Shown one piece after another: positions 2,470 through 58,217 of a stretch of DNA of 64,000 nt. Source of the stretch: Desulfuromonadales bacterium. Its GTDB lineage: Bacteria; Desulfobacterota; Desulfuromonadia; Desulfuromonadales; BM103. A model generated the notes under the pieces. That model did no database searches. It was not told where the DNA came from and worked only from the letters and a program-made list of their open reading frames with translations. How positions within the stretch are numbered: the stretch's first letter is position 1; every line of letters begins with the position of its first letter. The stretch covers positions 248,001 to 312,000 of the forward strand of contig JACZKE010000060.1 in assembly GCA_014860225.1 (NCBI GenBank), given 5' to 3'. The translations under genes were made by a program, and so were the position numbers.

Positions 2470-3294
2470 ATGTCATACAAGATCATCATAGAAGCGGGAC
2501 GTAGTGAACGCCATTATTGGCGGGATATCTGGCGCTTTCGCGAGCTATTTTACATTCTGGCATGGCGCGATATTCTGGTGCGTTACAAACAGACCGTGAT
2601 TGGTTTTGCTTGGGCTATTTTGAGGCCATTACTTACCATGATTGTCTTCACGGTCATCTTTGGGAAACTAGCCAAGTTGCCATCTGAAGGTTCCGCTCCC
2701 TATGCAATAATGGTTTATGCTGCGATGTTGCCCTGGCAGTTTTTTTCGAACTCTCTTAGCGAAGCAAGCAATAGCTTGCTTGATAATGAAAAGTTGATTT
2801 CCAAAGTATATTTCCCTCGGATGATTGTCCCTGCCAGTTCAGTAATCACCAGCTTTGTTGATTTTTTAATCTCCTCAATAATTCTCCTCGCCATCATGGT
2901 CTGGTATCAATACTGGCCCTCATGGCGCATTATGACCTTGCCCTTTTTTATTTCCATAGCTTTTGCTGCTGCCATGGGGTTGGGGCTTTGGTTGACTGCT
3001 TTAAATGTTAAATATCGTGATTTTCGCTACATTGTACCTTTCATCCTTCAGTTTGGTCTGTATATCTCTCCTGTCGGTTTTTCAAGTTCCATCGTTCCTG
3101 AAAAATATCGCTTGCTCTATTCCCTGAACCCAATGGTTAGTGTGATTGATGGCTTCCGCTGGGCAATTCTCGGCAATGACTCAAAGATATACCTGCCCGG
3201 TTTTTCCCTATCTCTTGGAATTGTGGTTGCATTCTTGATCTATGGAATTGTTTATTTCCGAAGAACCGAAAAGAACTTCGCGGATATTATATGA
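2470..3294 (+). CDS. wzm: ABC-2 type polysaccharide export permease
   Basis: A 274-residue inner-membrane permease of the Wzm/TagG family, which with Wzt moves undecaprenyl-linked polysaccharide across the cytoplasmic membrane. The sequence shows the typical amphipathic start 'YWRDIWRFRELFYILAWRDI' followed by 'VRYKQTVIGFAWAILRPL' and about six hydrophobic segments. A terminal 'YFRRTEKNFADII' tail is common in this family. It overlaps the ATPase gene by 4 bp, the usual arrangement for a transporter pair. The flanking glycosyltransferases and methyltransferases support O-antigen or a similar surface glycan as cargo. Confidence 0.93.
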   Translation: MSYKIIIEAGRSERHYWRDIWRFRELFYILAWRDILVRYKQTVIGFAWAILRPLLTMIVFTVIFGKLAKLPSEGSAPYAIMVYAAMLPWQFFSNSLSEASNSLLDNEKLISKVYFPRMIVPASSVITSFVDFLISSIILLAIMVWYQYWPSWRIMTLPFFISIAFAAAMGLGLWLTALNVKYRDFRYIVPFILQFGLYISPVGFSSSIVPEKYRLLYSLNPMVSVIDGFRWAILGNDSKIYLPGFSLSLGIVVAFLIYGIVYFRRTEKNFADII

Positions 3295-4571
3295 GTGATA
3301 CAATTATTAAAGTAGAAAACCTGTCCAAAAGTTACATTATAGGGCACCAAAGCAATGAAAAATATCTGGCTTTGCGGGATGTTTTGGCTTCTCAGGCAAA
3401 GTCCTTTGGTAAACGTCTTCTGCATCCCTTTAAAAACTCAGCAGGGGGGCTCATCTCAGCCGACGAAACGGAAGAGTTCTGGGCTTTAGATAATGTCTCT
3501 TTTGATATTAAGCAGGGTGACCGGGTTGGTATCATCGGACGCAATGGTGCTGGCAAGTCAACCCTACTGAAGATTTTAAGCCGCATCACCGAACCAACGC
3601 AAGGCCGGATTGAGATTGATGGTCGTGTGGCCAGTTTACTCGAGGTCGGAACTGGCTTTCATCCTGAATTGACCGGGAGAGAGAATGTTTTTCTAAATGG
3701 TGCCATTTTGGGGATGAGCAAAGCCGATATCCGGCGTAAGTTTGATGAAATTGTTGCATTCTCAGAGGTTGAGAAGTTTCTTGATACACCGGTTAAGAGG
3801 TACTCCTCGGGTATGTATGTGAAGTTGGCTTTTGCTGTAGCGGCGCATCTTGAGCCAGAAATCTTGATTATTGATGAGGTGTTGGCGGTGGGGGATGCAC
3901 TATTTCAGGAGAAGTGTTTAGGGAAAATGGAGACTGTTAGTCAAGAAGGAAGAACAGTTATTTTTGTGAGTCACAATATGGGCGCGATTAAAGCACTCTG
4001 CCAAAATGTATTGTTGTTAAGTAGTGGGCGGGTTCAATCTATTGGTAATGTTGATGAGATTATTAGTGATTATCTTTCAGATGGCTCGACAGAATTTAAG
4101 CCTTCATTGCATATTCCAAAAGATGCGAGCAAAATAGCGCAATTCACAGAAATAACAGTCAGTAGCCTAGCTGAAGGGGCTTCACAAATAGCTCACGACA
4201 AGCCATATTCAATAACTCTACAGGTTTTTGTTAAAGAAAAACTACCAAGTTGCTATCTTGCCCTGCACGTAATAGATAGTGACCTGCAAACGATTCTTTT
4301 CTCCCGTAATTTTTGCCCCGGGAAGGGAAATGATGATTACATCCTTCCTGGTAAACATACATACTCTATACACATTCCTGGAAACTTACTTGTGCCTGGA
4401 GTCTATAGGATATCTGCGCATCTTGCGACATCTTCGCCAGCGGTACTTTTAGATGGTTATGATAATGTATGTAAATTCGAAATTTACGACAATGGCAGTA
4501 TTTATGCTAAAAAAGGTTTTCCATGGAGAGGGAAGCTTTCTGTACCTTTGGATTGGAACTACATAGGTTGA
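3291..4571 (+). CDS. wzt: Polysaccharide ABC transporter ATPase with glycan-binding C-terminus
   Basis: A 426-residue ATPase partner of Wzm. Walker A 'GRNGAGKSTLL' lies near residue 83, the signature 'YSSGMYVKLAFA' near 175 and Walker B 'ILIIDEVLAVGD' near 196. About 150 residues follow the ATPase domain and resemble the Wzt C-terminal beta-sandwich that recognises the non-reducing end of finished chains. Long Wzt proteins of this kind normally export glycans whose length is set by a terminal cap such as a methyl group; the nearby methyltransferase genes fit that logic, though which one caps is inference. A 245-bp gap lies downstream. Confidence 0.93.
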   Translation: MSDTIIKVENLSKSYIIGHQSNEKYLALRDVLASQAKSFGKRLLHPFKNSAGGLISADETEEFWALDNVSFDIKQGDRVGIIGRNGAGKSTLLKILSRITEPTQGRIEIDGRVASLLEVGTGFHPELTGRENVFLNGAILGMSKADIRRKFDEIVAFSEVEKFLDTPVKRYSSGMYVKLAFAVAAHLEPEILIIDEVLAVGDALFQEKCLGKMETVSQEGRTVIFVSHNMGAIKALCQNVLLLSSGRVQSIGNVDEIISDYLSDGSTEFKPSLHIPKDASKIAQFTEITVSSLAEGASQIAHDKPYSITLQVFVKEKLPSCYLALHVIDSDLQTILFSRNFCPGKGNDDYILPGKHTYSIHIPGNLLVPGVYRISAHLATSSPAVLLDGYDNVCKFEIYDNGSIYAKKGFPWRGKLSVPLDWNYIG

Positions 4572-6978: not shown

Positions 6979-6987
6979 AGCTTGGTT
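6979..6987. repeat. Left copy of IS target-site duplication
   Basis: The 9-bp sequence AGCTTGGTT immediately before the IS is repeated exactly at 8311-8319 after it. This is the footprint expected of IS4-family transposition, and the exact match argues for a recent insertion. Confidence 0.93.
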
Positions 6988-8310
6988 CACTACTGTCCGA
7001 TTAATAAGTGAATAAATTCAGTTGGTTATCGCTTGGCGTGTCTGTGATTTGCTTGAGAGCGTCAGCAACCATAGATGGAATGGGTTTTTTCTCGAACAAA
7101 TTGACCTCCAGTATTTGTAGAAAAGTGTAGAGCTGGCATGAGATGCCGAGCCTCTTTTTGGCGATCACCACCAACAGATAGATGCTCAATGCAACCCAGA
7201 TCTGACTTTTCACCGCGTTTATTGATGTTCCGTAAAATGTCTTTATTCGCAAGTGTTGTTTGACCCATTTGAAAAACAGTTCCACTTGCCAGCGCTGCTT
7301 GTAAATTTCAGCAATGACTGGTGCTGGCAGCGCGAAGTTGTTGGTCAGAAAGACCAAACGTTTATTGCGTTTATTGTCGACATAGCTGACCTGACGTAGT
7401 TTATCCGGGTAATCCTTTTTCGATTTGTAGGTTGTCAGAACAACCGTTTGATCCGCCCTGATTCCGGCATCTTTGTCCTTGGGCGATGAATACAGTCGCT
7501 TAAAGCGAAAGTTGTCCTTTGCTCTGACGACAAAATAGGCGTCTTGCTGGTGAAGCGCATAGAGCCTGGTGAAGTCGATATAGGCCCGATCCATGGTGTA
7601 GATAGCGTCTTCTTTCACAGGCAAGGTGTCAAGCATTCTGACATCATGAACCTTGCCCGTTGTGATCGTCACGAATGTCGGGATTGTTCCCCGCAGGTCG
7701 ATCAGTGTGTGCATCTTCACCGCAGCCTTTGTCTTACGGAATTCGGCCCAAGGGAACAATGACAAGCACAGATCAATAGTTGTTGAGTCAAAAGCGTACA
7801 GAGGCTGATTGAGTTCAAGAGCAAACGGTTCGTCCTGGTAGAGCCGTTGTGCCATGCGGATCAGAATTTGACCAAAGTCTTGAAAGATACGCCAGTCTCT
7901 GCGCTCATTTGCGTCGGCCAGAGTGGAACGGGAGACAGAACCTCGGAAACCGATGTGATACAGTTTCTCTTGATGAGAGTTCAAACAGGTCTCAATATCA
8001 CGCAAGCTCTCACGCCCAGTCATTTGGGCATATGCGAGACATAGGAACTGATCAAACGTTGAGAAACTTTTGGCTCTGTAGTTGCCGCGATAACGACGCA
8101 CGCACAGGTCGAACTCATGCCGTGGCAACAATTGCAACAGTTGCCGGAAAACGGTATGACCGGAATTCATAGATACCCTCCTGTGAGATCAGAAAGGTAT
8201 CAACCCATACTGCTGAAGCGAATTCAAATCGAAAACATGCTAGCTATGTCAAAGAACTATTATTCTCAACGACTTACGTCGTTTCCCAAATTTTTAACCG
8301 GACAGTAGTG
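6988..8310 (-). mobile_element. IS4-family insertion sequence, 1323 bp
   Basis: The element is bounded by perfect 12-bp terminal inverted repeats, CACTACTGTCCG at 6988-6999 and its complement at 8299-8310; the similarity extends imperfectly to about 20 bp (TTAA-type continuation). It is flanked by exact 9-bp direct repeats. One transposase gene fills it on the minus strand, opposite to the interrupted gene. Both ends and the transposase frame are intact, so it may still be mobile. Confidence 0.95.
7001..8170 (-). CDS. IS4-family DDE transposase
   Basis: A 389-residue transposase that cuts and joins DNA with an RNase H-like DDE site. The first Asp lies in 'YAFDSTTIDL', the second in 'YTMDRAYIDF', and the Glu is in the family's Y-(2)-R-(3)-E-(6)-K signature, visible as 'YKQRWQVELFFKWVKQ'. 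The N-terminal 'RGNYRAKSFSTFDQFLCLAY' region matches the DUF4372-type helical domain common in this group. The frame is uninterrupted and full length for the family. It occupies almost all of the IS, starting 141 bp from its right end. Confidence 0.95.
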   Translation of the reverse strand: MNSGHTVFRQLLQLLPRHEFDLCVRRYRGNYRAKSFSTFDQFLCLAYAQMTGRESLRDIETCLNSHQEKLYHIGFRGSVSRSTLADANERRDWRIFQDFGQILIRMAQRLYQDEPFALELNQPLYAFDSTTIDLCLSLFPWAEFRKTKAAVKMHTLIDLRGTIPTFVTITTGKVHDVRMLDTLPVKEDAIYTMDRAYIDFTRLYALHQQDAYFVVRAKDNFRFKRLYSSPKDKDAGIRADQTVVLTTYKSKKDYPDKLRQVSYVDNKRNKRLVFLTNNFALPAPVIAEIYKQRWQVELFFKWVKQHLRIKTFYGTSINAVKSQIWVALSIYLLVVIAKKRLGISCQLYTFLQILEVNLFEKKPIPSMVADALKQITDTPSDNQLNLFTY

Positions 8311-8319
8311 AGCTTGGTT
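8311..8319. repeat. Right copy of IS target-site duplication
   Basis: AGCTTGGTT, identical to 6979-6987. The interrupted methyltransferase reading frame resumes through this copy. Confidence 0.93.
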
Positions 8320-9184
8320 ATAACATTATCAGCGCTGATTTTCTTGGTAGAAGCTTTTCTTCAAAATATGCTGAGCGCTATGGACGTGTAATCAATAGCC
8401 TGAACAATCAGGCGAAGACGTTTAATAACAGATATACAAAACACCTGAAATCTTCTTATGGCGGTAAACGCGATGGGAAGTTGTCCCGTCTAAAAGGTTT
8501 GTTTCGTCGCGATGTAAGGAATGAAGACCTGTTTGCTTTTATTGAAAAAAACAAACGTTCGCCGCGTGAATATGTGTCTAAACAATTTTTTGAGTACGAC
8601 GCTGACAAGACTTGCGGTAGCCTATTTTTATACAAATGTGACCTTAAGGATATGGCCCTTTTGCCTGATGGCTTTGTTGATGGTGTTGTCTCAATTTCGG
8701 CACTTGAACATAACGATCACAAGGATTTTGAGAAGTGTATTGATGAGATTCTCAGGGTTACAAAACCTTCAGGATGGCTTCTAGCAACAGTTAGTGCTGC
8801 GCAGTCCGAAGACTGGTTCCATGCTCCCTCAAAAGGTTGGTGCTATAGCGAGGCAACTCTGAAACAGCTTTTTCAGCTGTCTGAAAGCGTGGAGAGCAAT
8901 TTTTCCCAGAAAAAATTGTTTTTTGAGCAATTGAGAAGCGAAGGCAACAATCTCCATAAAAGACTTGCCTCGGTTTATTCTCAATCTGGTGAAAACGGCA
9001 TGCCGTGGGGAAAATGGAAACCAACTTATATACCTGTCGGTATTTTGAAGGTTAAGGCATAATCAAAGCATACGATATGAGAAATACAAGGTAGTGATTA
9101 TATCACTCTGGGAAATAAACCAGAGTTGGTTTAGTAAAAGATGAAGATCTAGGCGTTTAAAAAAAATAAGTAAGAGAATAATTT

Positions 9185-9952
9185 ATGATTAAGTCGCTCA
9201 AAGTGTATTTAGAAAACTTTTCAGATATATCATATCGGGAGTGGTATTTCTGTCACATGAAAAGATTAGAAGCGTTTAGAGGTAAACATAAAGGAGAAAG
9301 ATGCTTCATTGTCGGCAATGGTCCTTCCTTGAATGAAATGGAACTCACTCTTCTGGCTGATAAAAACACATTCGGCCTGAATAAGATTTATCTTCTTCTT
9401 GATAAAATTGATCTTAATGTCTCGTATCATGTTTCCGTGAATTCATTAATTATTGAACAAAGCCATAAAGACTTTGAACAAATAAGTTGCCCATCATTCT
9501 TGTCGTACCCAGTGAGTCGGGGGATCGTTGAAAACCTCGATAAATTTTATTACATATACCCTCGTGGGCCGTATACCTTTCAACCTGATATTACTCAAAA
9601 CATTCATGAAGGTTATACTGTTACCTTTGTGGCTCTGCAAATTGCTTTTTTTATGGGGTTTGAAGAAGTCTATTTAATTGGTGTCGATCATAATTTCGTT
9701 GTCAGTGGTAACCCGAATGAAAAACAGCGGCTTGAAGGTGAAGACCCAAACCATTTCGACCCGAACTATTTCTCTGGTAAAGATTGGCATTTGCCTGATT
9801 TAGAAGCCTCTGAGTTGTCTTATCATCTGGCCAACTTTTTCTACAAGAGGGCAGGGCGGCAAATTTTTGATGCAACAGTTGATGGTAAGTTGACTGTCTT
9901 CCCGAAGATTTCTTTTGCGGATGCTTTACTTAGATCAAAAACAAAACGTTAA
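9185..9952 (+). CDS. DUF115/MptE-like, GT42-like putative glycosyltransferase (copy 1)
   Basis: A 255-residue protein. It has 'CFIVGNGPSLNEMEL' near residue 40, then 'GYTVTFVALQIAFFMGFEEV' and 'YLIGVDHNF'. The first motif and the Gly-Asp block occur in the same order in DUF115/Maf proteins and in GT42 sialyltransferases such as CstII (recalled, not searched). Those families transfer CMP-activated acidic sugars, so I infer a CMP-sugar transferase. MptE-type pterin pyrophosphokinases share the domain but would be out of place here. It is a paralogue of the gene at 15705; both share 'IFDATVDGKL' near the C-terminus. Confidence 0.72.
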   Translation: MIKSLKVYLENFSDISYREWYFCHMKRLEAFRGKHKGERCFIVGNGPSLNEMELTLLADKNTFGLNKIYLLLDKIDLNVSYHVSVNSLIIEQSHKDFEQISCPSFLSYPVSRGIVENLDKFYYIYPRGPYTFQPDITQNIHEGYTVTFVALQIAFFMGFEEVYLIGVDHNFVVSGNPNEKQRLEGEDPNHFDPNYFSGKDWHLPDLEASELSYHLANFFYKRAGRQIFDATVDGKLTVFPKISFADALLRSKTKR

Positions 9953-9972
9953 ATCACGAGTTGACAATAAAG

Positions 9973-10803
9973 ATGATCACTCTATTCACATCATGTAAGC
10001 CATTTATAGGCGCTGATAATGTTGCTCAAAGGAATGCAATAAAGAGTTGGAGATTGCTAAGGCCTAAGCCTGAGGTTATCATCGTTGGAGATGATTCCGG
10101 GGCTAAGGAGGTAGCAGAAGAATTCGGGTTGATCTACATAAGTGAGGTCAGAAGATATCGAAACCGCAATCCGTATGTTGACGATGTTTTCAAAAGAGCG
10201 TCTCAGGCTGCCTCGAATGATCTACTGTGTTATCTGAATTCAGACATTATCCTTATGAGCGACTACATGTCTGCCGTGAATGAAGTCAGGGTGTTAAATA
10301 AACAGTTTCTGATTATTGGAAAAAGATATGATCTTAATGTAGAAAATGAGTTGGATTTTGGGTCCCAATGGGAGGAACAGCTAACTGCCAGAGTTAAGTC
10401 AGAAGGCTGTCTTTATCCTCTCGCTGGTATAGATTATTTTGTCTTTCGTAAAGGGACATATGACGATATCCCCCCATACATTCTTGGAAATGTCAGATGG
10501 GATAACTGGATGGTCTATTCTGCTCGTTGTAAAAGAATGATGGTAGTTGATGCCACGGATCATGTGCGAGTAGTTCATCAGAACCATGAGTTGAATCATG
10601 CTCAAGGTGCGGATGAGGAGGAGATATCTACCGACGAAGCTGCTGTGTACAACTTTAATCTCTATGGTAAAGACTTGCCTCCTTTTTATCATGTAGATGC
10701 TACGCACAAGATTACTCTTAATGGGTTGAAGAGATCGATGGATAGGTCTTTTCTCGTGAGGTGTTTAACGACGTTGCCCATTCTTTTGAAAAACAAGTCA
10801 TGA
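9973..10803 (+). CDS. GT-A fold glycosyltransferase-like protein
   Basis: About 276 residues. The track opens at a TTG at 9961, but the ATG at 9973 gives a clean 'MITLFTSCKPFIG' start and is preferred. 'PEVIIVGDDSGAKEVAEEFG' and 'LLCYLNSDIILMSDY' resemble the nucleotide-binding beta strand and DxD-like metal motif of GT-A enzymes. 'NVRWDNWMVYSA' fits the acceptor region of proteins annotated as glycosyltransferase family A. Donor and linkage are unknown. The gene lies 20 bp after the DUF115 gene, consistent with an operon, and is AT-rich like its neighbours. Confidence 0.68.
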   Translation: MITLFTSCKPFIGADNVAQRNAIKSWRLLRPKPEVIIVGDDSGAKEVAEEFGLIYISEVRRYRNRNPYVDDVFKRASQAASNDLLCYLNSDIILMSDYMSAVNEVRVLNKQFLIIGKRYDLNVENELDFGSQWEEQLTARVKSEGCLYPLAGIDYFVFRKGTYDDIPPYILGNVRWDNWMVYSARCKRMMVVDATDHVRVVHQNHELNHAQGADEEEISTDEAAVYNFNLYGKDLPPFYHVDATHKITLNGLKRSMDRSFLVRCLTTLPILLKNKS

Positions 10804-10844
10804 TTTGGTGGCTAGTGAATAGTTTATAATGTTAGGTTCAAACC

Positions 10845-11684
10845 ATGTTAGAAAAAGGTAAAAGTCTAGTGTCGGTTATATTATGTAACTACAACTATGA
10901 CCAATATGTTGGTGATTCGATCAATAGTATTCTGAGACAAACGCACGAGAATTTACAGTTGGTAGTTGTTGATGACGGTTCTACCGACAACTCACGTGAG
11001 ATCATCAATACGTTTGTTGATAGCCGAATTGTAAAAATATTTCAGAAAAATTCAGGCCAAGCCGCAGCCTTCAATGCTGGATATGAAAGATGCACCGGTG
11101 AGTTTATAGGTTTTTTAGATAGTGATGATTTTTGGGATAATGACAAACTGTCTAGCGCACTACCTTTTTTCGACGATGAAAATATCTGCATGGTACAACA
11201 TAATTTAAGAGTGGTTGATAGGGGCTCTAACGACACTGGACGCTTACAAACAAAGGTCAAGCCAGGATTAACCGATGTTTTTAGTAAGTATTTTAGAAAA
11301 AATCACACTGGCTTCTTTGTGGCTACAAGTGGGATCGTCTGTCGTAAGTCCGTTCTTGATAAAATCTTTCCGTTGGATGTTGACTGGAAGATTTGCGCTG
11401 ATGTTGCCTTTACAAGAGCTCTACCTCTCTTTGGGAAAATCTATACAATATCTGAGACGTTAGGCAGTTACAGAATTCATGGTGAAAATAACTGGGTCAA
11501 TACACAGCAACAGAACCAATGGCTTATTAACCAGAGAAAGTATGTTGATTATACAAACCACTGTTTAAAGAAACATGGCTATCAGCAGCAGCTTGTTTTT
11601 GAGAAATCTGGTATGTATCGTAGAAATGTTTTAAAAAACAAAATTCCTGGGTTGAGATCGTTTTGTGATTTCTTGTTAAGATAA
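10845..11684 (+). CDS. Glycosyltransferase family 2
   Basis: A 279-residue GT2 enzyme. The characteristic blocks are 'VSVILCNYNYDQYVGDSI', 'LVVVDDGSTDNSREII', 'NSGQAAAFNAGYERC' and the DxD-type 'IGFLDSDDFWDNDKL'. A central 'ICADVAFTRALPLFG' matches the conserved acidic acceptor-site region of the family. It should act in the cytoplasm on a lipid-linked glycan. The gap to the previous gene is 41 bp and to the next 23 bp, so it is part of the same transcription unit. The sugar cannot be predicted. Confidence 0.88.
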   Translation: MLEKGKSLVSVILCNYNYDQYVGDSINSILRQTHENLQLVVVDDGSTDNSREIINTFVDSRIVKIFQKNSGQAAAFNAGYERCTGEFIGFLDSDDFWDNDKLSSALPFFDDENICMVQHNLRVVDRGSNDTGRLQTKVKPGLTDVFSKYFRKNHTGFFVATSGIVCRKSVLDKIFPLDVDWKICADVAFTRALPLFGKIYTISETLGSYRIHGENNWVNTQQQNQWLINQRKYVDYTNHCLKKHGYQQQLVFEKSGMYRRNVLKNKIPGLRSFCDFLLR

Positions 11685-11707
11685 TAGATTATAACTAATT
11701 GGATTAA

Positions 11708-12685
11708 ATGTCTAAAATATCAATAATTATACGTTGCTACAATGAAGAAGAACATATCGGTCGACTTCTGTCCGGAGTCCTTCAGCAAACCGAAAAGGAT
11801 TCCGAGATCATCGTTGTCGATTCCGGTTCAACAGATGCCACACTGGCAATAGCATCCCGTTATCCAGTCAAGATCATCTCCATCAAGAAAGACGATTTCT
11901 CTTTTGGTTATTCCCTGAATGTCGGTTGTGAAGCATCGATAGGGAAGTTTCTAGTCATTGTCAGTGCCCATGTTTATCCTGTTCATCATGATTGGCTGGA
12001 AAAACTTTTGCAACCATTTGAGAACGATCGGATTGGGCTCGTGTATGGAAAACAACGGGGAAATGATACAACCAAATATTCTGAGCAAAAGGTCTTTGCC
12101 AAGTGGTTTCCTGATCAATCCAATTGCAACCAGGGAAATCCTTTCTGCAATAATGCCAATACGGCTGTTCGTAAGGATCTTTGGGAAAGATTCCGTTATG
12201 ATGAAAGTCTGACCGGTTTGGAAGACCTCGCCTTTGCCAAGCAACTGCTCGGTGCTGGATACAAGGTTGCATACCAGGCTGAATCGGAGGTCATACATGT
12301 CCACAACGAGACATGGAAATCTTTGTTCAACCGTTATCGTCGCGAAGCTATTGCTCTCAAGGAGATTCTACCGCAGGAGCGGTTCGGGCTGTTTGACTTT
12401 TATCACATGTACACGAAGAACGTGTTTGGTGATTGCTTCCTGGCAATGAAAGAAGGGGTTTTCTGGCGCAATGCCCGTTCAATACTGGTTTTTCGGTTAA
12501 TGCAGTTCTGGGGAACTTACCGTGGATACACTCAGCACGGAACAATTTCACGGCAACTTAAAGAAAAATTCTATTATCCGAGCGAGGTGAAAATTCTGAA
12601 GCGAAAGAAAAATGAGATTGTAACGGAACGTCCAGTTATAGACTACAGGGAACTGGAAGAGGCCCGGGTTGAAGAAGATAATTGA
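11708..12685 (+). CDS. Glycosyltransferase family 2 (rhamnosyltransferase-like)
   Basis: A 325-residue GT2 protein. 'ISIIIRCYNEEEHIGRLL', 'EIIVVDSGSTDATLAIA', 'FGYSLNVGCEASIGKFLV' and 'LTGLEDLAFAKQLLGAGY' are typical of the subgroup often called rhamnosyltransferases, with 'HVHNETWKSLFNRYRREA' as the conserved His-containing downstream motif. The activity is inferred from family resemblance only. Its end overlaps the next gene by 17 bp, suggesting coupling of the glycan-assembly genes to the sugar-modification genes that follow. Composition becomes less AT-rich from here on. Confidence 0.86.
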   Translation: MSKISIIIRCYNEEEHIGRLLSGVLQQTEKDSEIIVVDSGSTDATLAIASRYPVKIISIKKDDFSFGYSLNVGCEASIGKFLVIVSAHVYPVHHDWLEKLLQPFENDRIGLVYGKQRGNDTTKYSEQKVFAKWFPDQSNCNQGNPFCNNANTAVRKDLWERFRYDESLTGLEDLAFAKQLLGAGYKVAYQAESEVIHVHNETWKSLFNRYRREAIALKEILPQERFGLFDFYHMYTKNVFGDCFLAMKEGVFWRNARSILVFRLMQFWGTYRGYTQHGTISRQLKEKFYYPSEVKILKRKKNEIVTERPVIDYRELEEARVEEDN

Positions 12686-13298
12686 TATTTCACTGCCTCT
12701 GATAGAAGAACTTCCTGTCTGGCCTGGTAGCCCCAAGTTTGAGCTTGTGCAAGTGTCGCGTCTGGGCTTTGATGGTTGCAATGAAACGCGGCTGAGCCTC
12801 GGCAGTCATACTGGAACACATATAGATGCGCCACGACACTTTGTTGAGAATGGCGCAACAGTCGATCAGCTCTCTCTAGAAGTTTTGGTCGGCGAGGCTT
12901 ATGTTGTCGAGTGTACTGCTACCCGGGAAATTTCAGCCGAGATACTGGAGAGGCTTACATTGCCTTCAAAAGTTGAGCGTTTGCTCTTCAAGACAGGGAA
13001 CTCAGATCTATGGTCTCTGGGGCAGAAAGCATTCTTTGAAGACTTTGCGGCGCTGACTCTCGATGGTGCCGAATGGCTGGTGCAAAAAGGTGTAACGCTT
13101 GTAGGAATCGATTACCTTTCCATACAACGTTTTCATGATTCGAACGCTACCCATGAAGTCCTTCTTGGCGCTGGCGTTGTTGTTCTTGAGGGGCTGAACC
13201 TTGCTGGCGTGACACAAGGTCTCTATGATCTTACCTGTTTGCCCCTGTATGTTGTAGGTGCGGAAGGCGCACCGGCCAGAGCCATCTTAAGCTATTGA
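12669..13298 (+). CDS. Cyclase-family metal-dependent hydrolase
   Basis: A 209-residue protein of the cyclase/kynurenine formamidase-like family (Pfam Cyclase). The metal-binding signature HxGTHxDxPxH is complete as 'SHTGTHIDAPRHF'. 'GVTLVGIDYLSI' and 'LTCLPLYVVGAEGAPARAIL' match the conserved C-terminal blocks. Family members hydrolyse amides such as N-formylkynurenine, or lactones. The start is a TTG inside the preceding gene, with GAAGAGG nearby. Nothing suggests tryptophan degradation here; placement before a cytidylyltransferase and two dehydrogenases suggests work on a glycan precursor. Substrate unknown. Confidence 0.85.
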   Translation: MKKIIDISLPLIEELPVWPGSPKFELVQVSRLGFDGCNETRLSLGSHTGTHIDAPRHFVENGATVDQLSLEVLVGEAYVVECTATREISAEILERLTLPSKVERLLFKTGNSDLWSLGQKAFFEDFAALTLDGAEWLVQKGVTLVGIDYLSIQRFHDSNATHEVLLGAGVVVLEGLNLAGVTQGLYDLTCLPLYVVGAEGAPARAILSY

Positions 13299-13323
13299 GC
13301 AGCAACAGATCTCGGATAATCAA

Positions 13324-14007
13324 GTGAAAATTTCTGCAATTATACCGATGAGGCACAGCAGTGAACGAGTGCCGGGTAAGAACTACCGCATGTTTGCTGG
13401 TAAGCCGCTATTTCATCACGTGGTCGGGAGTTTTATGGCGTGTCCCGAGATCGATGAAGTAGTCATCGACACAGACAGCCAGATGATCATGGATGATGCG
13501 GCAAGCCATTTTCCAACTGCTAGAGTTCTGAAACGTCCTGAGCATCTCAGGGATGCGGCGATCCCAATGAATGCTGTTCTGCTGCACACCACAAAACAGA
13601 TTGTTGCTGATTTTTACTTACAATCCCACAGCACAAATCCCTTGCTTAGTTCGACGACCACCTCCTGTGCAATTCAGTGCTTCCTCAAAAACCTTGATAA
13701 ATTCGACTCGTTATTCTCTGTAAAACGTTTACAGACCCGACTGTGGGACGCGTCGGGACGACCTCTTAATCATAACCCTGACAAACTAATCCGCACTCAA
13801 GATCTGCCACCGGTTTTCGAGGAGAACTCTTGCATCTATATTTTCAGCAGGCAGACCTTGGAAAAAAGAGGGAACCGCATCGGTGAAAACCCATTGTTGT
13901 TCGAGATGGATTCGATTGAATCTTTGGATATTGATGAAGAGGTTGATTTCCAGATTGCTGAATTGCTTTTTCTGAACAGAGCTAATCTCAAGGTGAACGA
14001 AAAATGA
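13324..14007 (+). CDS. CMP-sugar-type cytidylyltransferase
   Basis: A 227-residue nucleotidyltransferase of the acylneuraminate cytidylyltransferase/KdsB group. The hallmark near the N-terminus is 'IIPMRHSSERVPGKN', matching the RxxSxRxPGKN-type loop that binds CTP. 'DEVVIDTDSQMIMDDA' and 'RTQDLPPVFEENSCIYIF' are further family landmarks. It should couple CMP to an acidic sugar or sugar-like acid. The window has a separate, ordinary kdsB at 53427, so this one serves another substrate. No NeuB-type synthase is visible. The start is GTG. The end overlaps the next gene by 4 bp. Confidence 0.87.
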   Translation: MKISAIIPMRHSSERVPGKNYRMFAGKPLFHHVVGSFMACPEIDEVVIDTDSQMIMDDAASHFPTARVLKRPEHLRDAAIPMNAVLLHTTKQIVADFYLQSHSTNPLLSSTTTSCAIQCFLKNLDKFDSLFSVKRLQTRLWDASGRPLNHNPDKLIRTQDLPPVFEENSCIYIFSRQTLEKRGNRIGENPLLFEMDSIESLDIDEEVDFQIAELLFLNRANLKVNEK

Positions 14008-14945
14008 AGTGGCAAATTCTTGTTTCTGCACCTTATCTGCAGCCACACATCGCTCAGTTCCGGTCTATATTTGAAGCAAATAGTGCTGAGATCATTCTGC
14101 CTGAAGTTCACGAAAGGCTTTCAGAAGAAGAACTCCTTGGCCTTATGGGAGAGATTGATGGTGTAGTTGCTGGGGATGATCGTTTTACCCGTAAAGTACT
14201 GGAAAAGGCGACTCCCCGCCTAAAAGTCATCTCAAAGTGGGGGACGGGGATTGATTCCTTCGATCAAGAGGCATGTCAGGATCTCGGTGTTGTCATCAGG
14301 AATACGCCTGACGCATTCACCGACCCCGTTGCTGATTCTGTAATGGGTTATATCCTTGCTTTCGCCAGACGACTTCCATGGATGAATCAGCAAATGAAGG
14401 CTGGAGTGTGGGACAAAATACCCGGAAGGGCTTTGAACGAATCGACCCTCGGAGTGATTGGGGTCGGCAAGATCGGAAAAGCAATTGTACGTCGTGCAAG
14501 ATCTTTTGACATGAGAGTCTTTGGTCATGATCTTGTCGAAATGCCAGAGTCGTTCATCAAGGAAACGGGGATTGAAATGGTTTCCAGGGAGAGGTTACTC
14601 AGCGAGGCTGATTTTATCACGGTGAACTGTGACCTCAATGCTACTAGTTTGCATCTTATTGGCGAAGAGGAGTTCAAGGCCATGAAACCTTCTGCTGTTA
14701 TCGTCAACCTTGCAAGAGGGCCCATTATTGAGGAGTCGGCTATGATTTCTGCTCTTCAGAGTAAAGAAATTGCCGGTGCTGCCCTCGATGTGTATGAAGA
14801 TGAGCCTCTACCGTTAGAAAGCCCATTTCTGAAGATGGATAATGTCTTGTTGGCACCGCACAACTCGAACAGCAGTCCTAAAGCCTGGGCAAGAGTACAT
14901 ATAAATACTCTGAAAAATCTTTTTGAAGTATTGGAAGGCCAATAA
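14004..14945 (+). CDS. D-isomer-specific 2-hydroxyacid dehydrogenase
   Basis: A 313-residue NAD-dependent dehydrogenase of the phosphoglycerate dehydrogenase-like family. The Rossmann motif is 'LGVIGVGKIGKAIVRRA', the catalytic region runs through 'VIVNLARGPIIEESAMISAL' and 'AGAALDVYEDEPLP', and 'LLAPHNSNSSPKAWARV' holds the active-site His. It would oxidise or reduce a 2-hydroxy/2-keto acid. It is coupled on both sides (4-bp overlap upstream, 1 bp to the SDR gene). The context points to synthesis of the acid that the cytidylyltransferase activates, although serine metabolism cannot be excluded. Confidence 0.88.
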   Translation: MKWQILVSAPYLQPHIAQFRSIFEANSAEIILPEVHERLSEEELLGLMGEIDGVVAGDDRFTRKVLEKATPRLKVISKWGTGIDSFDQEACQDLGVVIRNTPDAFTDPVADSVMGYILAFARRLPWMNQQMKAGVWDKIPGRALNESTLGVIGVGKIGKAIVRRARSFDMRVFGHDLVEMPESFIKETGIEMVSRERLLSEADFITVNCDLNATSLHLIGEEEFKAMKPSAVIVNLARGPIIEESAMISALQSKEIAGAALDVYEDEPLPLESPFLKMDNVLLAPHNSNSSPKAWARVHINTLKNLFEVLEGQ

Positions 14946-14946
14946 A

Positions 14947-15690
14947 ATGAAAACAGCAATAATTACTGGTGTGGCTGGTGGCATCGGTGCTGCAACCTCA
15001 GCGGTTTTCTTGCGTGAAGGCTGGCGGGTGATCGGGGTAGATAGAGAACAGGCAAAGGACTCCTGCTACAGTGATTTTATTGCTACGGACCTGGCCAATG
15101 TGACACAGCTTGACCAGGTTTTTGCCGAGGTGGCTCATAAAACAGACAGGCTTGACGCCTTGATCAACAATGCAGCGGTACAACTCTGTAAACCCCTAAT
15201 GGAGACGACCTCTGTCGAGTGGGATGAAGTTATGGCTGTCAATTTGCGGGCAGCCTTCCTGATGATGCAGTATTCTTATCCTTTACTGAGCGTGCGAGGC
15301 GGTTCAATCGTCAATGTTGGCTCAGTGCATGCTCGGGCCACTTCTGAAAACATAGCAGCATATGCCGCGAGCAAGGGCGGTTTGGAGTCTTTGACTCGCG
15401 CCGCGTCTCTTGAGTTTGCTGCAAGCGGCATTCGCGTTAATGGTGTACATCCTGGTGCGGTAAAAACGGATATGCTTAAAGCAGGTCTTAATCGTGGACA
15501 TTTGTCTGACGAGACATACGAAGTACAGCTGGAAAAACTTGGACAAAAACACCCTCTTGGCAGGGTCGGATCACCCAAGGAGATTGCTGAAACCATATTC
15601 TTTCTTGCTGATGGCCAAAGGTCGTCATTTATTACAGGTACTTTCTTGGTTTCTGATGGCGGCGCGTTAGGTCGTCTTTCGACTGAGTGA
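14947..15690 (+). CDS. Short-chain dehydrogenase/reductase
   Basis: About 247 residues with a full classical SDR layout: nucleotide-binding 'TGVAGGIGAATSAVF', 'LINNAAVQ', and the catalytic Ser followed by Y-x3-K in 'AAYAASKGGLES'. 'RVNGVHPGAVKTDM' is the usual post-catalytic block and 'ITGTFLVSDGG' ends the domain. The track extends to 14923, but the ATG at 14947, one base after the previous stop, is the natural start. It likely reduces or oxidises a sugar or sugar-acid ketone. It is the last gene of the four-gene module before the second DUF115 gene. Confidence 0.88.
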   Translation: MKTAIITGVAGGIGAATSAVFLREGWRVIGVDREQAKDSCYSDFIATDLANVTQLDQVFAEVAHKTDRLDALINNAAVQLCKPLMETTSVEWDEVMAVNLRAAFLMMQYSYPLLSVRGGSIVNVGSVHARATSENIAAYAASKGGLESLTRAASLEFAASGIRVNGVHPGAVKTDMLKAGLNRGHLSDETYEVQLEKLGQKHPLGRVGSPKEIAETIFFLADGQRSSFITGTFLVSDGGALGRLSTE

Positions 15691-15704
15691 ATGAACAAAC
15701 TACA

Positions 15705-16490
15705 ATGAATAGTAAGTACTTAGGGTATTATTTTGCCAATATCTTGCAGCTCCGATACAGTTTTGCCTATATCGAGTGGTTTTTGAAATATGCGAGGACC
15801 CTTAGAAAATTCAAAAACCTGCACCATGGAAAAGATTGCTTTATTCTCGGGAATGGGCCGTCCTTAAACAAAATCGATCTAGACCAACTTTCAGAGTATT
15901 ACACATTTGGCCTAAATAAGATTTTCTTGCTTTTCGACAAGGTAAACTACAGGCCAACTTATCATGTGGCAGTGAACCGATTAGTTATCGAACAAAGTAT
16001 AAAAGAGTTTGAAGCTTTACCTTGTACTTCTTTTCTGTCTTTTTTCCCAAGTCGCAACAAATTTAAAAATCTGGAGCATATTAATTTCATCCTGACCGGT
16101 GGTCCGAGCGTCTTTCGTAAGAATCTTGTCGGTCTGGTTGATGAGGGCTGGACAGTAACGTATGTCGCAATGCAGATCGCATATTATATGGGCTTTAAAA
16201 ATGTTTTTTTGGTTGGAGTAGATCATAATTTCATTGTGAGCGGCGCCCCAAACGAACCTCAGCTTTTTAAGGGGGATGATGTGAACCATTTTGACTCTAA
16301 TTATTTTAGTAATATGGAATGGCAGCCTCCGGATTTGCGGGGCTCCGAGAGTTCTTATCATTTGGCCAAACTTTGTTACGAGAAAAGTGGTCGAAACATC
16401 TTCGACGCCACGGTAGATGGAAAACTGCAGGTATTCCCAAAATTGTCATTTGAGAAAGCTCTGGTAACCTGCAAGAAGAGAAACGGCTAA
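15705..16490 (+). CDS. DUF115/MptE-like, GT42-like putative glycosyltransferase (copy 2)
   Basis: About 261 residues, paralogous along its whole length to the gene at 9185. 'CFILGNGPSLNKIDLDQL', 'GWTVTYVAMQIAYYMGFKNV', 'FLVGVDHNFIVSG' and 'NIFDATVDGKLQVFPKLS' line up with copy 1, and 'DPNYFS' corresponds to 'DSNYFS'. Interpretation is the same: a likely transferase of a CMP-activated residue, by analogy with Maf and GT42 proteins. A GTG at 15687 overlapping the SDR stop is the alternative start. Its place directly after the CMP-activation module strengthens the inferred link. Confidence 0.72.
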   Translation: MNSKYLGYYFANILQLRYSFAYIEWFLKYARTLRKFKNLHHGKDCFILGNGPSLNKIDLDQLSEYYTFGLNKIFLLFDKVNYRPTYHVAVNRLVIEQSIKEFEALPCTSFLSFFPSRNKFKNLEHINFILTGGPSVFRKNLVGLVDEGWTVTYVAMQIAYYMGFKNVFLVGVDHNFIVSGAPNEPQLFKGDDVNHFDSNYFSNMEWQPPDLRGSESSYHLAKLCYEKSGRNIFDATVDGKLQVFPKLSFEKALVTCKKRNG

Positions 16491-18915: not shown

Positions 18916-18918
18916 CCC
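18897..18918 (-). repeat. Right inverted repeat of the REP-transposase element
   Basis: The complement reads GGGTCAAATCTTTGTTGTTG(AC), one mismatch from 17875-17896. It spans the last codons and the stop of the transposase. Confidence 0.85.
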
Positions 18919-18995
18919 TTGGGTTCCCTTGGGTCTTCAGCTTGACAAGACAAATACTCCGCCCTACAGTGTCAAGCGGGTTGCATTCAGAGTCG

Positions 18996-19439
18996 ATGGG
19001 TGAGGAAATGGAACAGCTGATGTCGGTCGAAAATGCCCTTGCTACTATAAAATCACTGCTTGCGCAAAATCCGTATGTGAAAGTTGCTTACCTTTTCGGC
19101 TCTTGTGCGCGGGGTGATGTTGGGCCTTTGAGTGATGTCGATATCGCGGTCTTGCTGGATGGCCGGATCTCCCCGTTTGAATTCCGCTTGCGACTGTCAG
19201 CGTCTCTAGCCCAGGCGTTGGGGTCGGAGAGTTTTGATCTGGTTACTCTTAATGATGCTCCATTGCTTTTAAAGTATGAAGTGGTTCGCGGCGGTCGGGT
19301 GATCAAGGAAGATAAAAAGAAACGCGTCACCTTTGAAACACGGGTCCTCAGCGAGTATCTTGACACGGCTTACTTGCGACGTACCCAACGAGCCTATCTT
19401 AAAGAGCAGTTGGCACAGGGAGGCGCTTTTGGTCAATAA
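18996..19439 (+). CDS. mntA: MntA-like minimal nucleotidyltransferase (antitoxin)
   Basis: About 147 residues with the GSx10DxD signature of minimal nucleotidyltransferases in 'GSCARGDVGPLSDVDIAVLL'. In characterised pairs, MntA adds AMP to the HEPN toxin HepT and so silences it. The track extends to 18912, inside the REP element; ATGs at 18996, 19008 and 19020 are all possible and the choice is uncertain. The C-terminal segment after 'GGRVIKEDKKKRVTFE' is longer than the bare domain. It overlaps hepT by 11 bp, the normal order and coupling for this system. Confidence 0.85.
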   Translation: MGEEMEQLMSVENALATIKSLLAQNPYVKVAYLFGSCARGDVGPLSDVDIAVLLDGRISPFEFRLRLSASLAQALGSESFDLVTLNDAPLLLKYEVVRGGRVIKEDKKKRVTFETRVLSEYLDTAYLRRTQRAYLKEQLAQGGAFGQ

Positions 19440-19842: not shown

Positions 19843-19953
19843 CATAAGCCGGAATCCCCAGGCCACGTTGACATCCTCGACTTTGCTTGTTTTAAAAGCT
19901 CGCGACTCCTCTCCTCTACCTCTTCACCCCCTGCCGCCTGCCTTCAAGTTGTC

Positions 19954-53349: not shown

Positions 53350-53426
53350 GCCTTTTCAGGTTGGCAGAGATTGCGGAAAAGGGCCGTTTCCGGACGAAAA
53401 CCAATTAAATCAGGAGCTTGATTAAC

Positions 53427-54185
53427 ATGGGTGTTACAGTTGTTATCCCGGCACGGTATGCTTCAACCCGGTTCCCCGGAAAACCGCTTGCCGACTTGTG
53501 CGGCAAGCCGATGATACAGTGGGTCTATGAACGTTCCGCACTTTGTGAATCCGTTGGCCGGGTCATCGTCGCCACTGATGATGACCGTATTGCCCGTGCA
53601 GTAGAGTCCTTCGGCGGCGACGTCGCCATGACTCGATCTGATCATCTGACCGGTACCGACCGTCTGGCAGAAGTTGCCGCAGGTCTCGATGATGAACTGA
53701 TTGTGAATGTGCAGGGTGATGAACCTCTGATTGATCCGGCCATGATCCAGGCAGCCGTGGCGCCGCTGCTGGCTGACGACTCGATCCCCATGGGAACACT
53801 CAAGACACCCCTGACATCTATAGAGGAATACCGGAATCCGAATGTCGTCAAGGTGGTGACTGACCAGCACGGGTTCGCGCTCTACTTTTCCCGGGCGCCG
53901 ATACCCTACCCACGCGATTTCAATGACGCACTCGACCAACGCTGGGGTGAACTGGCGACCGCCAAGCATATTGGCCTGTATGTCTACCGACGTGAGTTTC
54001 TGCTGCAATATCCGCATCTCAAGACGACCCCGCTGGAGTCTCAGGAATGTCTTGAACAGCTGCGTGCTCTTGAACACGGCTACCGTATCAGTGTGGCAGA
54101 AACCAGGCTGGCGGGGCAGGGGGTTGATACACCGGAGGATCTGGAACAGGTAAGGGTGATCCTTGCCTCTTCTGTGCCGCGTTAA
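53427..54185 (+). CDS. kdsB: 3-deoxy-manno-octulosonate cytidylyltransferase
   Basis: About 252 residues; it joins CMP to Kdo for LPS inner-core synthesis. '[20 protein letters not shown]' is the CTP-binding loop, '[20 protein letters not shown]', '[19 protein letters not shown]' and '[13 protein letters not shown]' are diagnostic of KdsB. The ATG at 53427 is preceded by AGGAG at a 10-base spacing; TTG 53418 in the track is too close. It opens the Kdo/Lpt gene block. Confidence 0.95.
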
Positions 54186-56715
<2,530 letters not shown>

Positions 56716-56716
<1 letters not shown>

Positions 56717-57699
56717 TGATGACCAAATACACAGAAATTTTAGATGCCGCCCGCAAGGTTATTCAGATAGAAGCTGAAGCGGTTGCAGCTCTGGCAGCAC
56801 GGTTGGATGATAGCTTCGCCATGGCGGTAGAGATGATTCTGGCATGTTCCGGTCGCGTGGTCGTAACCGGGATGGGCAAATCCGGTTTGATCTGTCAGAA
56901 AATGGCGGCGACCATGGCTTCTACAGGAACACCGACAATCTTTTTGCATCCTGCTGAAGGTGTTCACGGTGATCTGGGAATGCTGATGAAGGGCGATGTC
57001 GTCATTGCGGTCTCCAATTCCGGTGAGACAGAAGAGATCGCCCGCATATTGCCGACGATCAAGCGCATGGGGCTGCCGTTGATTTCCATGACCGGAAATC
57101 CCACCAGTACTCTGGCACGCGCCGGCGATGTGTTTCTTGACATCTCCATCAAGGAGGAGGCCTGTCCATTGCAGCTGGCCCCGACAGCGAGTACCACAGT
57201 CACCCTGGCCATGGGCGATGCCCTGGCTGTTGCTTTGCTTTTACAGAGAGGTTTTCGGGAAGAGGATTTTGCTCTGTACCATCCCGGAGGCGCACTAGGC
57301 AAGCGCCTGCTGCTACGTGTTGAAGACCTGATGCATGTTGGTGAAGATGTACCGACTGTTAACGTAAATACTCCATTGAAAGATGCTCTGTATGTGATCT
57401 CCAGTAAAAAGTTGGGGATTACCGGGGTTGTTGATGACCGGGGAGACCTGGTCGGCGTCTTTACTGATGGTGACTTACGACGCAAGATTGAGCAGGGCAT
57501 CGAGGTCCTCAATCTCCCTATCGGAGAGCTCATGGCCGGCAAGCCGAAGCGTATTTTGCGCACCAACCTGGCGGCCAAATCCCTGCAGCGCATGGAGGAA
57601 CACCAGATTACCTCCTTATTTGTATTTGACTCGGAAGAGGATCAGAAACCGATCGGGATTATCCACCTGCATGACCTTCTCAAGGCAGGGGTTATCTGA
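56716..57699 (+). CDS. kdsD: Arabinose 5-phosphate isomerase
   Basis: About 327 residues; it interconverts ribulose 5-phosphate and arabinose 5-phosphate for Kdo synthesis. The SIS domain shows 'VVVTGMGKSGLICQKMAATM', 'TIFLHPAEGVHGDLGMLMKG' and 'VIAVSNSGETEEIARILPTI'. Two CBS domains follow ('LMHVGEDVPTVNVNTPLKDA' and 'LMAGKPKRILRTNLAAKSLQ'). GTG 56713 and ATG 56719 are alternative starts. It overlaps kdsA and shares one base with kdsC. Confidence 0.95.
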
Positions 57700-58217
57700 T
57701 GGCTGTCGATTTATCCAGGATCAAGCTGTTGCTGCTTGATGTCGACGGTGTCATGACTGACGGTCGAATTATCTTTGACAGCGATGGTGGCGAGACCAAG
57801 GCCTTCGATGTAAAAGATGGTCATGGTATCAAGCTGCTGCAGCGGGCAGGAATCCGGGTTGGCATCATTACCGGCCGTCAGTCGACAATCGTTGTCCGCA
57901 GGGCTGCGGAGCTGGGTATTGAACTGGTTTATCAGGGAGCCAAAGACAAGCGCCTGCCGTTCAACGAGATTCTGCAAAAACTGGCCCTTGCCCCGGAAGA
58001 AGTTGCTTATATCGGTGATGACATAGTCGATTTGCCTGTCATGAGGCAGGTCGGTTTTGCCGTGACCGTGGCTGATGCCGCCGACGATGTGAAACCCTTC
58101 GCCGACATGGTCACCGAACGGCCGGGAGGAAAAGGTGCCGTCAGGGAAGTCTGTGACTTTATTCTCAAGGAAACCGGCCGTTGGCCAACTGTGACACATC
58201 ATTATTTCGAAGGTTAG
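57699..58217 (+). CDS. kdsC: 3-deoxy-manno-octulosonate-8-phosphatase
   Basis: A 172-residue HAD phosphatase lacking a cap domain. The nucleophile Asp is in 'KLLLLDVDGVMTDGRIIFD', motif II in 'VGIITGRQSTIVVRRAAELG' and the metal Asp pair in 'VAYIGDDIVDLPVMRQVGFA'. It frees Kdo from its 8-phosphate before KdsB acts. It completes a full Kdo pathway in one run of genes (kdsB, A, D, C). An 80-bp gap with a possible promoter follows. Confidence 0.95.
   Translation: MAVDLSRIKLLLLDVDGVMTDGRIIFDSDGGETKAFDVKDGHGIKLLQRAGIRVGIITGRQSTIVVRRAAELGIELVYQGAKDKRLPFNEILQKLALAPEEVAYIGDDIVDLPVMRQVGFAVTVADAADDVKPFADMVTERPGGKGAVREVCDFILKETGRWPTVTHHYFEG

Follow-up and report, generated by a model that had tools for sequence, protein, structure and literature searches.

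A conserved gene module proposed to make and attach a CMP-activated 2-ulosonic acid through oxidation of a ready-made sugar

Results and discussion

A gene module in a 64,000-nucleotide stretch of DNA from a Desulfuromonadales bacterium (hereafter the window) may make a CMP-activated 2-ulosonic acid by oxidizing a ready-made sugar and attach it to a glycan; we regard this reading as about evenly balanced between right and wrong. To our knowledge, the bacterial CMP-ulosonate pathways that have been worked out (Kdo, sialic, pseudaminic, and legionaminic acids) all build the acid by phosphoenolpyruvate condensation. Gene replacements at related loci point instead to an acid formed by oxidizing an aldose. 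The gene content, its conserved linkage, the clade status of the cytidylyltransferase, the DUF115 fold, and the gene replacements were computed directly. An initial annotation of the window had made no proposal for how the acid is made.

Organization of the genes

The open reading frames named in the initial annotation, namely two DUF115 proteins, a cyclase, a cytidylyltransferase (CYT), a D-2-hydroxyacid dehydrogenase (DHG), and an SDR, were all found where it had placed them, and their Pfam matches agreed (Table 1). Four of these genes had been described as a tight run. The linkage is indeed tight, but the extent was underestimated: the spacings from GT2b to DUF115B are -17, +25, -4, -23, and -4 bases, and the run therefore comprises six genes, translationally coupled in the order GT2b-CYC-CYT-DHG-SDR-DUF115B (11,708–16,490). 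GT2b, which lies directly upstream of the cyclase and had been overlooked, is a conserved member of the module. Two more glycosyltransferase-like genes (9961 and 10845) are located between DUF115A and the run, and both a synthase and a phosphatase are absent from the run. For SDR, the likelier start is not the listed TTG but the ATG at codon 9 (MKTAII). The ABC-2 permease/ATPase pair near the module probably exports the glycan; the ATPase matched a Wzt-like C-terminal domain (PF14524, 8e-6) at a score under the cut-off of that model.

Table 1 Features of the window discussed in this study.
Feature	Position	Strand	Basis
ABC-2 permease and ATPase	2470..4571	+	PF01061 2e-19; PF00005 3e-23
DUF115A, short PF01973 protein	9185..9952	+	PF01973 2.2e-13; GNGPSL and GVDHNF
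GT2b, family-2 glycosyltransferase without DXD	11708..12685	+	PF00535 3e-24
CYC, cyclase-family metal hydrolase	12669..13298	+	PF04199 5e-26; TTG start inside the end of GT2b
CYT, cytidylyltransferase	13324..14007	+	PF02348 3e-28
DHG, D-2-hydroxyacid dehydrogenase	14004..14945	+	PF02826 4e-57
SDR	14923..15690	+	PF13561 2e-53; listed start TTG
DUF115B, short PF01973 protein	15687..16490	+	PF01973 9e-14; start overlaps SDR stop by 4 bases
Kdo operon kdsB-pyrG-kdsA-kdsD-kdsC, complete	53418..58217	+	NCBIfam matches

Cytidylyltransferase and its proposed substrate

In a phylogenetic tree, CYT and its relatives formed a distinct clade outside the NeuA/PseF-type controls (SH-aLRT 99). The best named model for CYT was PseF, with a score of 73.7 bits that was below the cut-off (205.7), and the kdsB model gave 26.7 bits against a cut-off of 155.2. 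The first matches of the CYT clade profile were CMP-Neu5Ac synthetase (NeuA) structures. By these sequence comparisons CYT is not KdsB, NeuA, or PseF, and we propose that it is a CTP:2-ulosonate cytidylyltransferase.

The PseF and NeuA matches would also be expected if the module belonged to a sialic-like (nonulosonic) acid pathway whose NeuB-type synthase had escaped notice, a reading that we consider very improbable. In agreement with the initial annotation, no NeuB was found: the only two PF03102 matches in the genome are DAHP synthases. Furthermore, NeuB in Chloroflexi adjoins a cytidylyltransferase-like gene of its own (22-26% identical), and the position of CYT outside the controls also speaks against such a pathway.

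The ordinary kdsB that had been noticed elsewhere in the window proved to be part of a full Kdo operon, separate from the module, which is therefore not the Kdo pathway. With that operon within the window and a faint match of DUF115A to WaaZ (E 0.0011), CYT might activate Kdo or a Kdo derivative from the kds operon, the other enzymes being modifiers. We regard this as improbable, given the separate kdsB and the distance of CYT from it, the presence of the module in Methanosarcina and Chloroflexi, from neither of which we know of Kdo synthesis, and the relatives of SDR, DHG, and the lactonase, which use aldoses and hydroxyacids. The CYT clade, the separate Kdo operon, and the absence of NeuB thus support the earlier suggestion that the CMP-activated acid is something other than plain Kdo or sialic acid.

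In basal members of the clade, CYT and DHG adjoin an HpaI/GarL-type aldolase (HpaI is a 2-keto-3-deoxy-acid aldolase), and some of these loci also carry a cyclase-family gene or a HAD hydrolase. The products of HpaI/GarL-type aldolases are 2-keto acids, and the simplest assumption is therefore that CYT acts on a 2-keto acid in either setting. The same loci favor the explanation that CYT activates a 2-keto-3-deoxy ulosonic acid supplied by an aldolase encoded elsewhere (HpaI- or DapA-type), DHG and SDR only preparing the aldehyde or pyruvate analogue or modifying the product. At one locus (L076), the cyclase and the HpaI aldolase occur together and CYT nests among the oxidation-type CYTs, which leaves a 3-deoxy acid as a possible substrate for that branch. 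However, HpaI was found within 8 kb of the DHG and SDR core at none of 56 loci, SDR is specific to the aldolase-free branch, and the lactonase replacements described below would have no obvious role. We therefore consider an aldolase origin unlikely.

Distribution and linkage

About 85,000 genomes were scanned, and 62 loci with CYT relatives were compared with 17 control cytidylyltransferase loci. The relatives were found in Chloroflexi, cyanobacteria, Methanosarcina, Bacteroidetes, Phycisphaerae, and proteobacteria; co-occurrence of the genes elsewhere, which the initial annotation had set as a test, is thus widespread across many phyla. Culturable bearers include Thermoflexibacter ruber and Niveispirillum irakense, as well as Thalassovita and Sulfitobacter, in which the locus is on a plasmid. 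DHG was present beside CYT at 46 of the 62 loci, SDR at 41, DUF115 at 38, GT2b at 35, and the cyclase at 9, whereas none of the 17 control loci had any partner at an identity of at least 33%. The association of CYT with its partners is far above chance. Of the 297 genomes examined from the window's phylum, exactly four contain the SDR subfamily, and all four carry CYT (G000, G098, G034, and G277); DHG and GT2b occur in these four plus one more. DUF115 was co-distributed with CYT when the window's own genome was left out (P = 6e-9). Moreover, DHG, SDR, and DUF115 stay together where CYT stands apart (three Saprospiraceae and two Chloroflexi). In Saprospiraceae, DUF115 seemed to be followed by a fourth conserved gene, but the genes at that position encode unrelated LytTR regulators, and this candidate was rejected.

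Dehydrogenases and proposed lactone-opening enzymes

The best PDB match of SDR was glucose 1-dehydrogenase 3vtz (1.9e-47 with the single sequence and 1e-64 with the family profile), and the second match of the family profile was dihydroanticapsin 7-dehydrogenase. S134, Y147, and K151 were invariant. Within its broad superfamily SDR was closest to aldose 1-dehydrogenases, and an XylB-like SDR was seen in Thalassovita; we propose that SDR is a NAD-dependent aldose 1-dehydrogenase. DHG matched PGDH (1wwk) first and 2-ketogluconate reductase (9m0t) second, with glyoxylate reductases close after, and R238, E265/E267, and H286 were invariant. It is proposed to be an aldonate 2-dehydrogenase. Both families are broad, which counts against the proposed pathway. 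DHG is also found alongside the HpaI aldolase, a setting that its proposed role does not readily explain.

CYC retains the conserved motif HxGTHxDxPxH and is proposed to be an aldonolactonase. Three Phycisphaerae without the cyclase have a gluconolactonase-family (SMP-30) gene after SDR. On a Rhodobacterales plasmid, genes for a xylose-1-dehydrogenase-like SDR, an SMP-30 lactonase, and DUF115 are consecutive, and GT2b-CYT-DHG follow 5 kb on; a second Rhodobacterales plasmid carries the same parts. SMP-30-family lactonase genes thus take the place of the cyclase gene in Phycisphaerae and on Rhodobacterales plasmids, but the window itself has a PF04199 hydrolase. In Rhodobacterales, the paired SDR and lactonase might belong to neighboring catabolic genes. 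Neither the cyclase nor a recognized lactonase was found nearby in most loci, chiefly those of Chloroflexi, and the lactone-opening step is therefore optional, spontaneous, or encoded elsewhere. The Chloroflexi genes between DHG and SDR were considered as missing lactonases and rejected: one encodes a protein resembling sulfatases, and the products of the others had no match and mostly look like membrane proteins.

Candidate transferases

DUF115A and DUF115B are 51% identical, and both carry GNGPSL followed by the GxDHNF block (GVDHNF in each), as had been noticed at the outset. The NGPSL motif near the domain start was invariant in 32 aligned proteins. The DUF115 family profile matched the GT42 sialyltransferases CstII/CstI first (9e-5). 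The predicted structure of DUF115B (pLDDT 92) gave Maf (5mu5) as the top Foldseek match (1.8e-7, with a TM-score of only 0.50). These profile and fold matches support the earlier view of a fold like that of CMP-sugar transferases. Maf proteins accept CMP-Neu5Ac and CMP-Kdo (PMC11339370). DUF115A and DUF115B are candidate CMP-ulosonate transferases.

The Pfam name would instead make the DUF115 proteins pterin pyrophosphokinases unrelated to the glycan, and the kinase indeed shares the domain, the HPPK of M. jannaschii (8sd5) being the second Foldseek match (6e-4). We give this identity hardly any credence and rejected it, since the kinase ranks under GT42/Maf both by profile, where 8sd5 reached only 0.17, and by fold; the comparison proposed in the initial annotation thus came out in favor of Maf/GT42. 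The co-distribution of DUF115 with CYT and the DHG-SDR-DUF115 groups also argue against it. A GTGSSL protein after SDR in Methanosarcina (L052:10507-11655) was considered as a DUF115 substitute and rejected (no Pfam match; hhalign probability only 12.7%).

GT2b has a clear Pfam GT2 domain but lacks DXD, with SAHVYP at that position. SAH[VCAI][YW]P was found in all 50 GT2b rows, with SAH invariant. The linkage of GT2b to CYT is as tight as that of DUF115, which makes it an equal candidate for the transferase. GT2b, and not DUF115, may transfer the CMP-linked residue, with DUF115 acting on a different target or at a second site; this is compatible with the oxidation pathway, and we hold it to be possible while leaning against it. 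GT2b occurs in 19 of 24 CYT-bearing genomes, seven of which have no recognizable DUF115, and a single-phosphate donor would permit the lack of DXD. On the other side, four CYT-bearing genomes have DUF115 without GT2b, and we know of no GT2 enzyme that uses a CMP-sugar. The SxH (SAH) motif also appears in a GT2 of G053, a genome without module-type CYT, and SAH as a sign of CMP use is therefore only suggestive.

Proposed pathway

In the proposed oxidation pathway, SDR would oxidize a free aldose at C1 to the aldonolactone, the cyclase-family hydrolase would open the lactone to the aldonate, and DHG would oxidize C2 of the aldonate to form the 2-ketoaldonate. The 2-ketoaldonate would already be an ulosonic acid, and condensation by NeuB, KdsA, or an aldolase would therefore be unnecessary. 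CYT would then couple the 2-ketoaldonate to CMP, the release of pyrophosphate pulling the unfavorable oxidation forward, and the GT42/Maf-like DUF115, the DXD-less GT2b, or both would move the residue onto the glycan, which would probably leave through the nearby ABC transporter. We infer all of these reactions, the identity of the sugar (most likely a pentose or hexose), and the acceptor. In its general form, namely a condensation-free CMP pathway in bacteria and archaea that leads from aldoses to non-3-deoxy 2-ulosonic acids and ends in transfer by DXD-less GT2 and GT42-like proteins, the proposal is held somewhat below even confidence.

If true, the oxidation route would add an unrecognized class of activated sugar and would account for hundreds of genes in glycan clusters whose annotation is acylneuraminate cytidylyltransferase, phosphoglycerate dehydrogenase, or MptE-like. 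It would also supply donors with which orphan DUF115 and GT2 transferases of widespread, mostly uncultured groups could be tested.

Comparison with known systems

Like the CMP-Kdo pathway (KdsD-KdsA-KdsC-KdsB and Kdo transferases), the module would deliver a CMP-activated 2-keto sugar acid to a surface glycan, whereas that pathway uses PEP condensation and a phosphatase and the module has a separate CYT clade, two dehydrogenases, and a hydrolase. With the NeuB/NeuA, PseI/PseF, and LegI/LegF pathways it shares a NeuA-related cytidylyltransferase and a PF01973/GT42-like transferase, the latter a candidate in the module. It differs from them in lacking a NeuB-type synthase, in having a CYT outside the NeuA/PseF-type controls, and in having short, free-standing DUF115 proteins in place of the full-length Maf of nonulosonic systems. 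The oxidative xylose and glucose routes (sugar 1-dehydrogenase, SMP-30 lactonase, and 2-ketogluconate reductase) use the same or analogous families in the same proposed order; those routes are catabolic, whereas the module apparently activates its product with CTP for incorporation into a glycan. Literature searches on hex-2-ulosonic acids and on the gene combination found no description of the module. The E. coli K3 capsule contains a 4-deoxy-2-hexulosonic acid, according to a title cited in PMC10433991; a hex-2-ulosonic acid is chemically known as a glycan constituent. The gene set is widespread and, as far as the literature searches show, previously undescribed.

Gene organization around CYT

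The cytidylyltransferase (CYT) lay in a packed run with a family-2 glycosyltransferase (GT2b), a cyclase-family hydrolase (CYC), a D-2-hydroxyacid dehydrogenase (DHG), an SDR, and DUF115B, one of two short PF01973 paralogues. The ORF positions of the initial annotation held and Pfam backed every family named there; its tight four-gene run was indeed tightly packed, with overlaps at four of five junctions, but comprised six genes. NeuB, which it had not seen in the window, was absent from the whole genome, the two weak matches being rejected as DAHP synthases. The lower G+C content of the first 20 kb (39-49% vs 45-56% beyond) is consistent with an acquired glycan island.

Features of the window and of the compared loci (L-prefixed; G053 is a genome of the window's phylum)
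Feature	Position	Remark
ABC exporter pair	2470-4571	upstream of DUF115A and the run
Radical SAM/SPASM protein	4817-5812	inside glycan cluster; weak likeness to tungsten-cofactor maturase model, far under cut-off
IS4-family element	6987-8311	between two methyltransferase genes; 21-base terminal inverted repeats, 90% complementary
IS4-family transposase	7001-8170, minus	within the element
Methyltransferase ORF	8481-9062	next after the element; N-terminus looks truncated
DUF115A	9185-9952	two genes apart from the run
Gene without Pfam family	9961-10803	between DUF115A and the run
GT2 bearing DXD	10845-11684	between DUF115A and the run
GT2b, CYC, CYT, DHG, SDR, DUF115B	11,708-16,490	gaps -17, +25, -4, -23, -4
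Segment after glycan cluster	17926-20676	assigned from translations
Putative REP-associated-type transposase	at 17926	
Putative nucleotidyltransferase and HEPN-like pair	18912-19842	3' of glycan cluster
Putative PIN-toxin/antitoxin-like pair	about 20080-20676	3' of glycan cluster
Complete Kdo operon	53.4-58.2 kb	
GalE after DHG	L143:9623-10639, L145:9629-10648	Rhodobacterales plasmids
Gene directly after SDR	L052:10507-11655	Methanosarcina; GTGSSL, later GFDG
ORF with GT2b-like domain	in L197 (G053:C3:700500-720000)	649 aa; SAHTLP
Large DUF115-containing proteins	L066:2631-4847, L074:979-7605, L099:15983-19900, L143:11443-16182, L200:803-7774, L201:9453-13118	about 700-2300 aa; near module or in same genome

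CYT clade and linkage of the module

The window CYT scored 73.7 bits with the PseF model (cut-off 205.7) and 26.7 bits with kdsB (cut-off 155.2), and its nearest solved structures by profile were CMP-Neu5Ac synthetases. Matches in 297 genomes of the phylum formed two groups, one of 39-61% identity (11 genomes, including the window's own) and one of 33% or less, and no E-value fell between 1e-51 and 1e-27. In a quick-search tree of 112 sequences, with several long branches among the controls, 18 control cytidylyltransferases split from the CYT clade (SH-aLRT 99). By sequence comparison, CYT forms a clade of its own.

A scan of GTDB genomes gave 474 CYT relatives, the best 80 of which came from Chloroflexi, cyanobacteria, Methanosarcinales, Saprospiraceae and other Bacteroidetes, Phycisphaerae, and alpha- and deltaproteobacteria. 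When these 80 and nine loci of the window's phylum were surveyed within 8 kb of CYT on the same strand, DHG was found in 72/89, SDR in 58/89, GT2b in 49/89, DUF115 in 41/89, and CYC in 15/89. In loci of at least 13 kb at 33% identity, the counts were 46/62 (DHG), 41/62 (SDR), 38/62 (DUF115), 35/62 (GT2b), and 9/62 (CYC), and each was 0/17 around ordinary cytidylyltransferases at the same identity; these surveys rested on mechanically called ORFs and on genomes of which many were metagenome-assembled, with a large share of related Chloroflexi and with controls from one phylum. The module is widespread, and this linkage agrees with its reading as one unit in the initial annotation.

Among the 297 genomes, the SDR subfamily occurred only in four (G000, G098, G034, and G277), all with CYT, and DHG and GT2b in these plus G053; DUF115 occurred in nine, seven with CYT. 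Scoring in these searches was limited to each genome's top first-look candidates, and weak relatives may have escaped. With the window's own genome left out, P for co-occurrence with CYT was 1e-4 for GT2b and 6e-9 for DUF115. Where CYT was solitary or in odd company, the genome still had DHG (12/12 tested) and SDR (11/12), and five such genomes carried DHG, SDR, and DUF115 together, in that order on one strand.

Enzyme families and proposed supply route

Residues S134, Y147, and K151 were invariant in the SDR alignment, and the best structure match was Thermoplasma glucose 1-dehydrogenase, both singly (1.9e-47; next 1e-35) and by family profile. DHG retained the R/E/H residues expected for its family and matched PGDH first and 2-ketogluconate reductase second, and CYC kept the HxGTHxDxPxH metal motif. 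Gene replacements are informative on the enzyme roles. Three Phycisphaerae without CYC had an SMP-30/gluconolactonase gene directly after SDR, and Thalassovita gelatinovora plasmid pAge77 had the order SDR, SMP-30 lactonase, DUF115, with GT2b-CYT-DHG-GalE and two more DUF115s 5 kb beyond. This lactonase matched SMP-30 family structures; the plasmid's SDR was closest among NCBIfam models to D-xylose 1-dehydrogenase (280 bits, under the cut-off of 400) and had sulfoquinovose 1-dehydrogenase in its top three matches. Sulfitobacter D7 had the same parts arranged differently. The GalE genes possibly hint at a galacto-configured sugar.

Because a lactonase-family gene occupies its place elsewhere, CYC is likely a lactonase, and SDR, feeding it by oxidation at C1, would be a sugar 1-dehydrogenase. 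DHG would then oxidise C2 to give a 2-ketoaldonate, the type of molecule that NeuA/KdsB-type enzymes activate, for activation by CYT. This inferred route gives each gene one step and would explain the absent condensing enzyme.

Basal members of the CYT clade were paired with HpcH/HpaI aldolases close to HpaI, GarL, and 2-keto-3-deoxyrhamnonate aldolases (in Acuticoccus, aldolase-CYT-DHG-HAD); such an aldolase was found in 0/56 loci having the DHG and SDR core. The product of this aldolase type is likewise a 2-keto acid; therefore, the simplest reading is that CYT acts on a 2-ulosonic acid in either branch and that the way this acid is supplied was swapped. One aldolase locus (L076) was nested inside the oxidation branch of the CYT tree. 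This placement fits a swap in the opposite direction, but a 3-deoxy acid may also be what the crown branch activates.

Transferase candidates

With the DUF115 family profile, the leading hits were the GT42 sialyltransferases CstII and CstI (9e-5 to 4e-4); the true pterin kinase reached only 0.17. The predicted model of DUF115B (pLDDT 92) matched Maf (1.8e-7), pterin kinase (6e-4), and human sialyltransferases in that order, with modest TM-scores (0.50 to Maf). The GT42/Maf likeness first noted from motifs thus ranked ahead of pterin kinase by profile and predicted fold. Maf has a CstII-like PF01973 domain, and both CMP-Neu5Ac and CMP-Kdo can serve as donors for Maf proteins (PMC11339370). The Methanosarcina gene after SDR may encode a distant GT42-like protein, in a locus that lacks DUF115. 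The DUF115 domains inside very large proteins suggest fused multi-domain transferases.

GT2b had SAHxYP at the family-2 DXD position (50/50 rows), and a similar motif also occurred in a GT2 outside the CYT context. G053, the host of the 649-aa protein, had a close DHG relative and neither a CYT of the module clade nor an SDR of the module subfamily; this protein may use another donor. GT2b was present in 19 and DUF115 in 16 of 24 genomes with CYT (both, 12; GT2b only, 7; DUF115 only, 4; neither, 1). GT2b is tied to CYT equally with DUF115, and the two are candidate alternative or successive transferases.

Comparison with known systems

A search of an open-access library gave no description of this gene combination. 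Hex-2-ulosonic acids in glycans are chemically known, for example in the E. coli K3 capsule, according to the title of a work cited in PMC10433991. Although its CYT falls short of the KdsB model that marks the CMP-Kdo pathway, and of the NeuA/PseF model that marks the CMP-sialate pathway, and the genome lacks the NeuB synthase of the latter, the module would work in the same manner as both.
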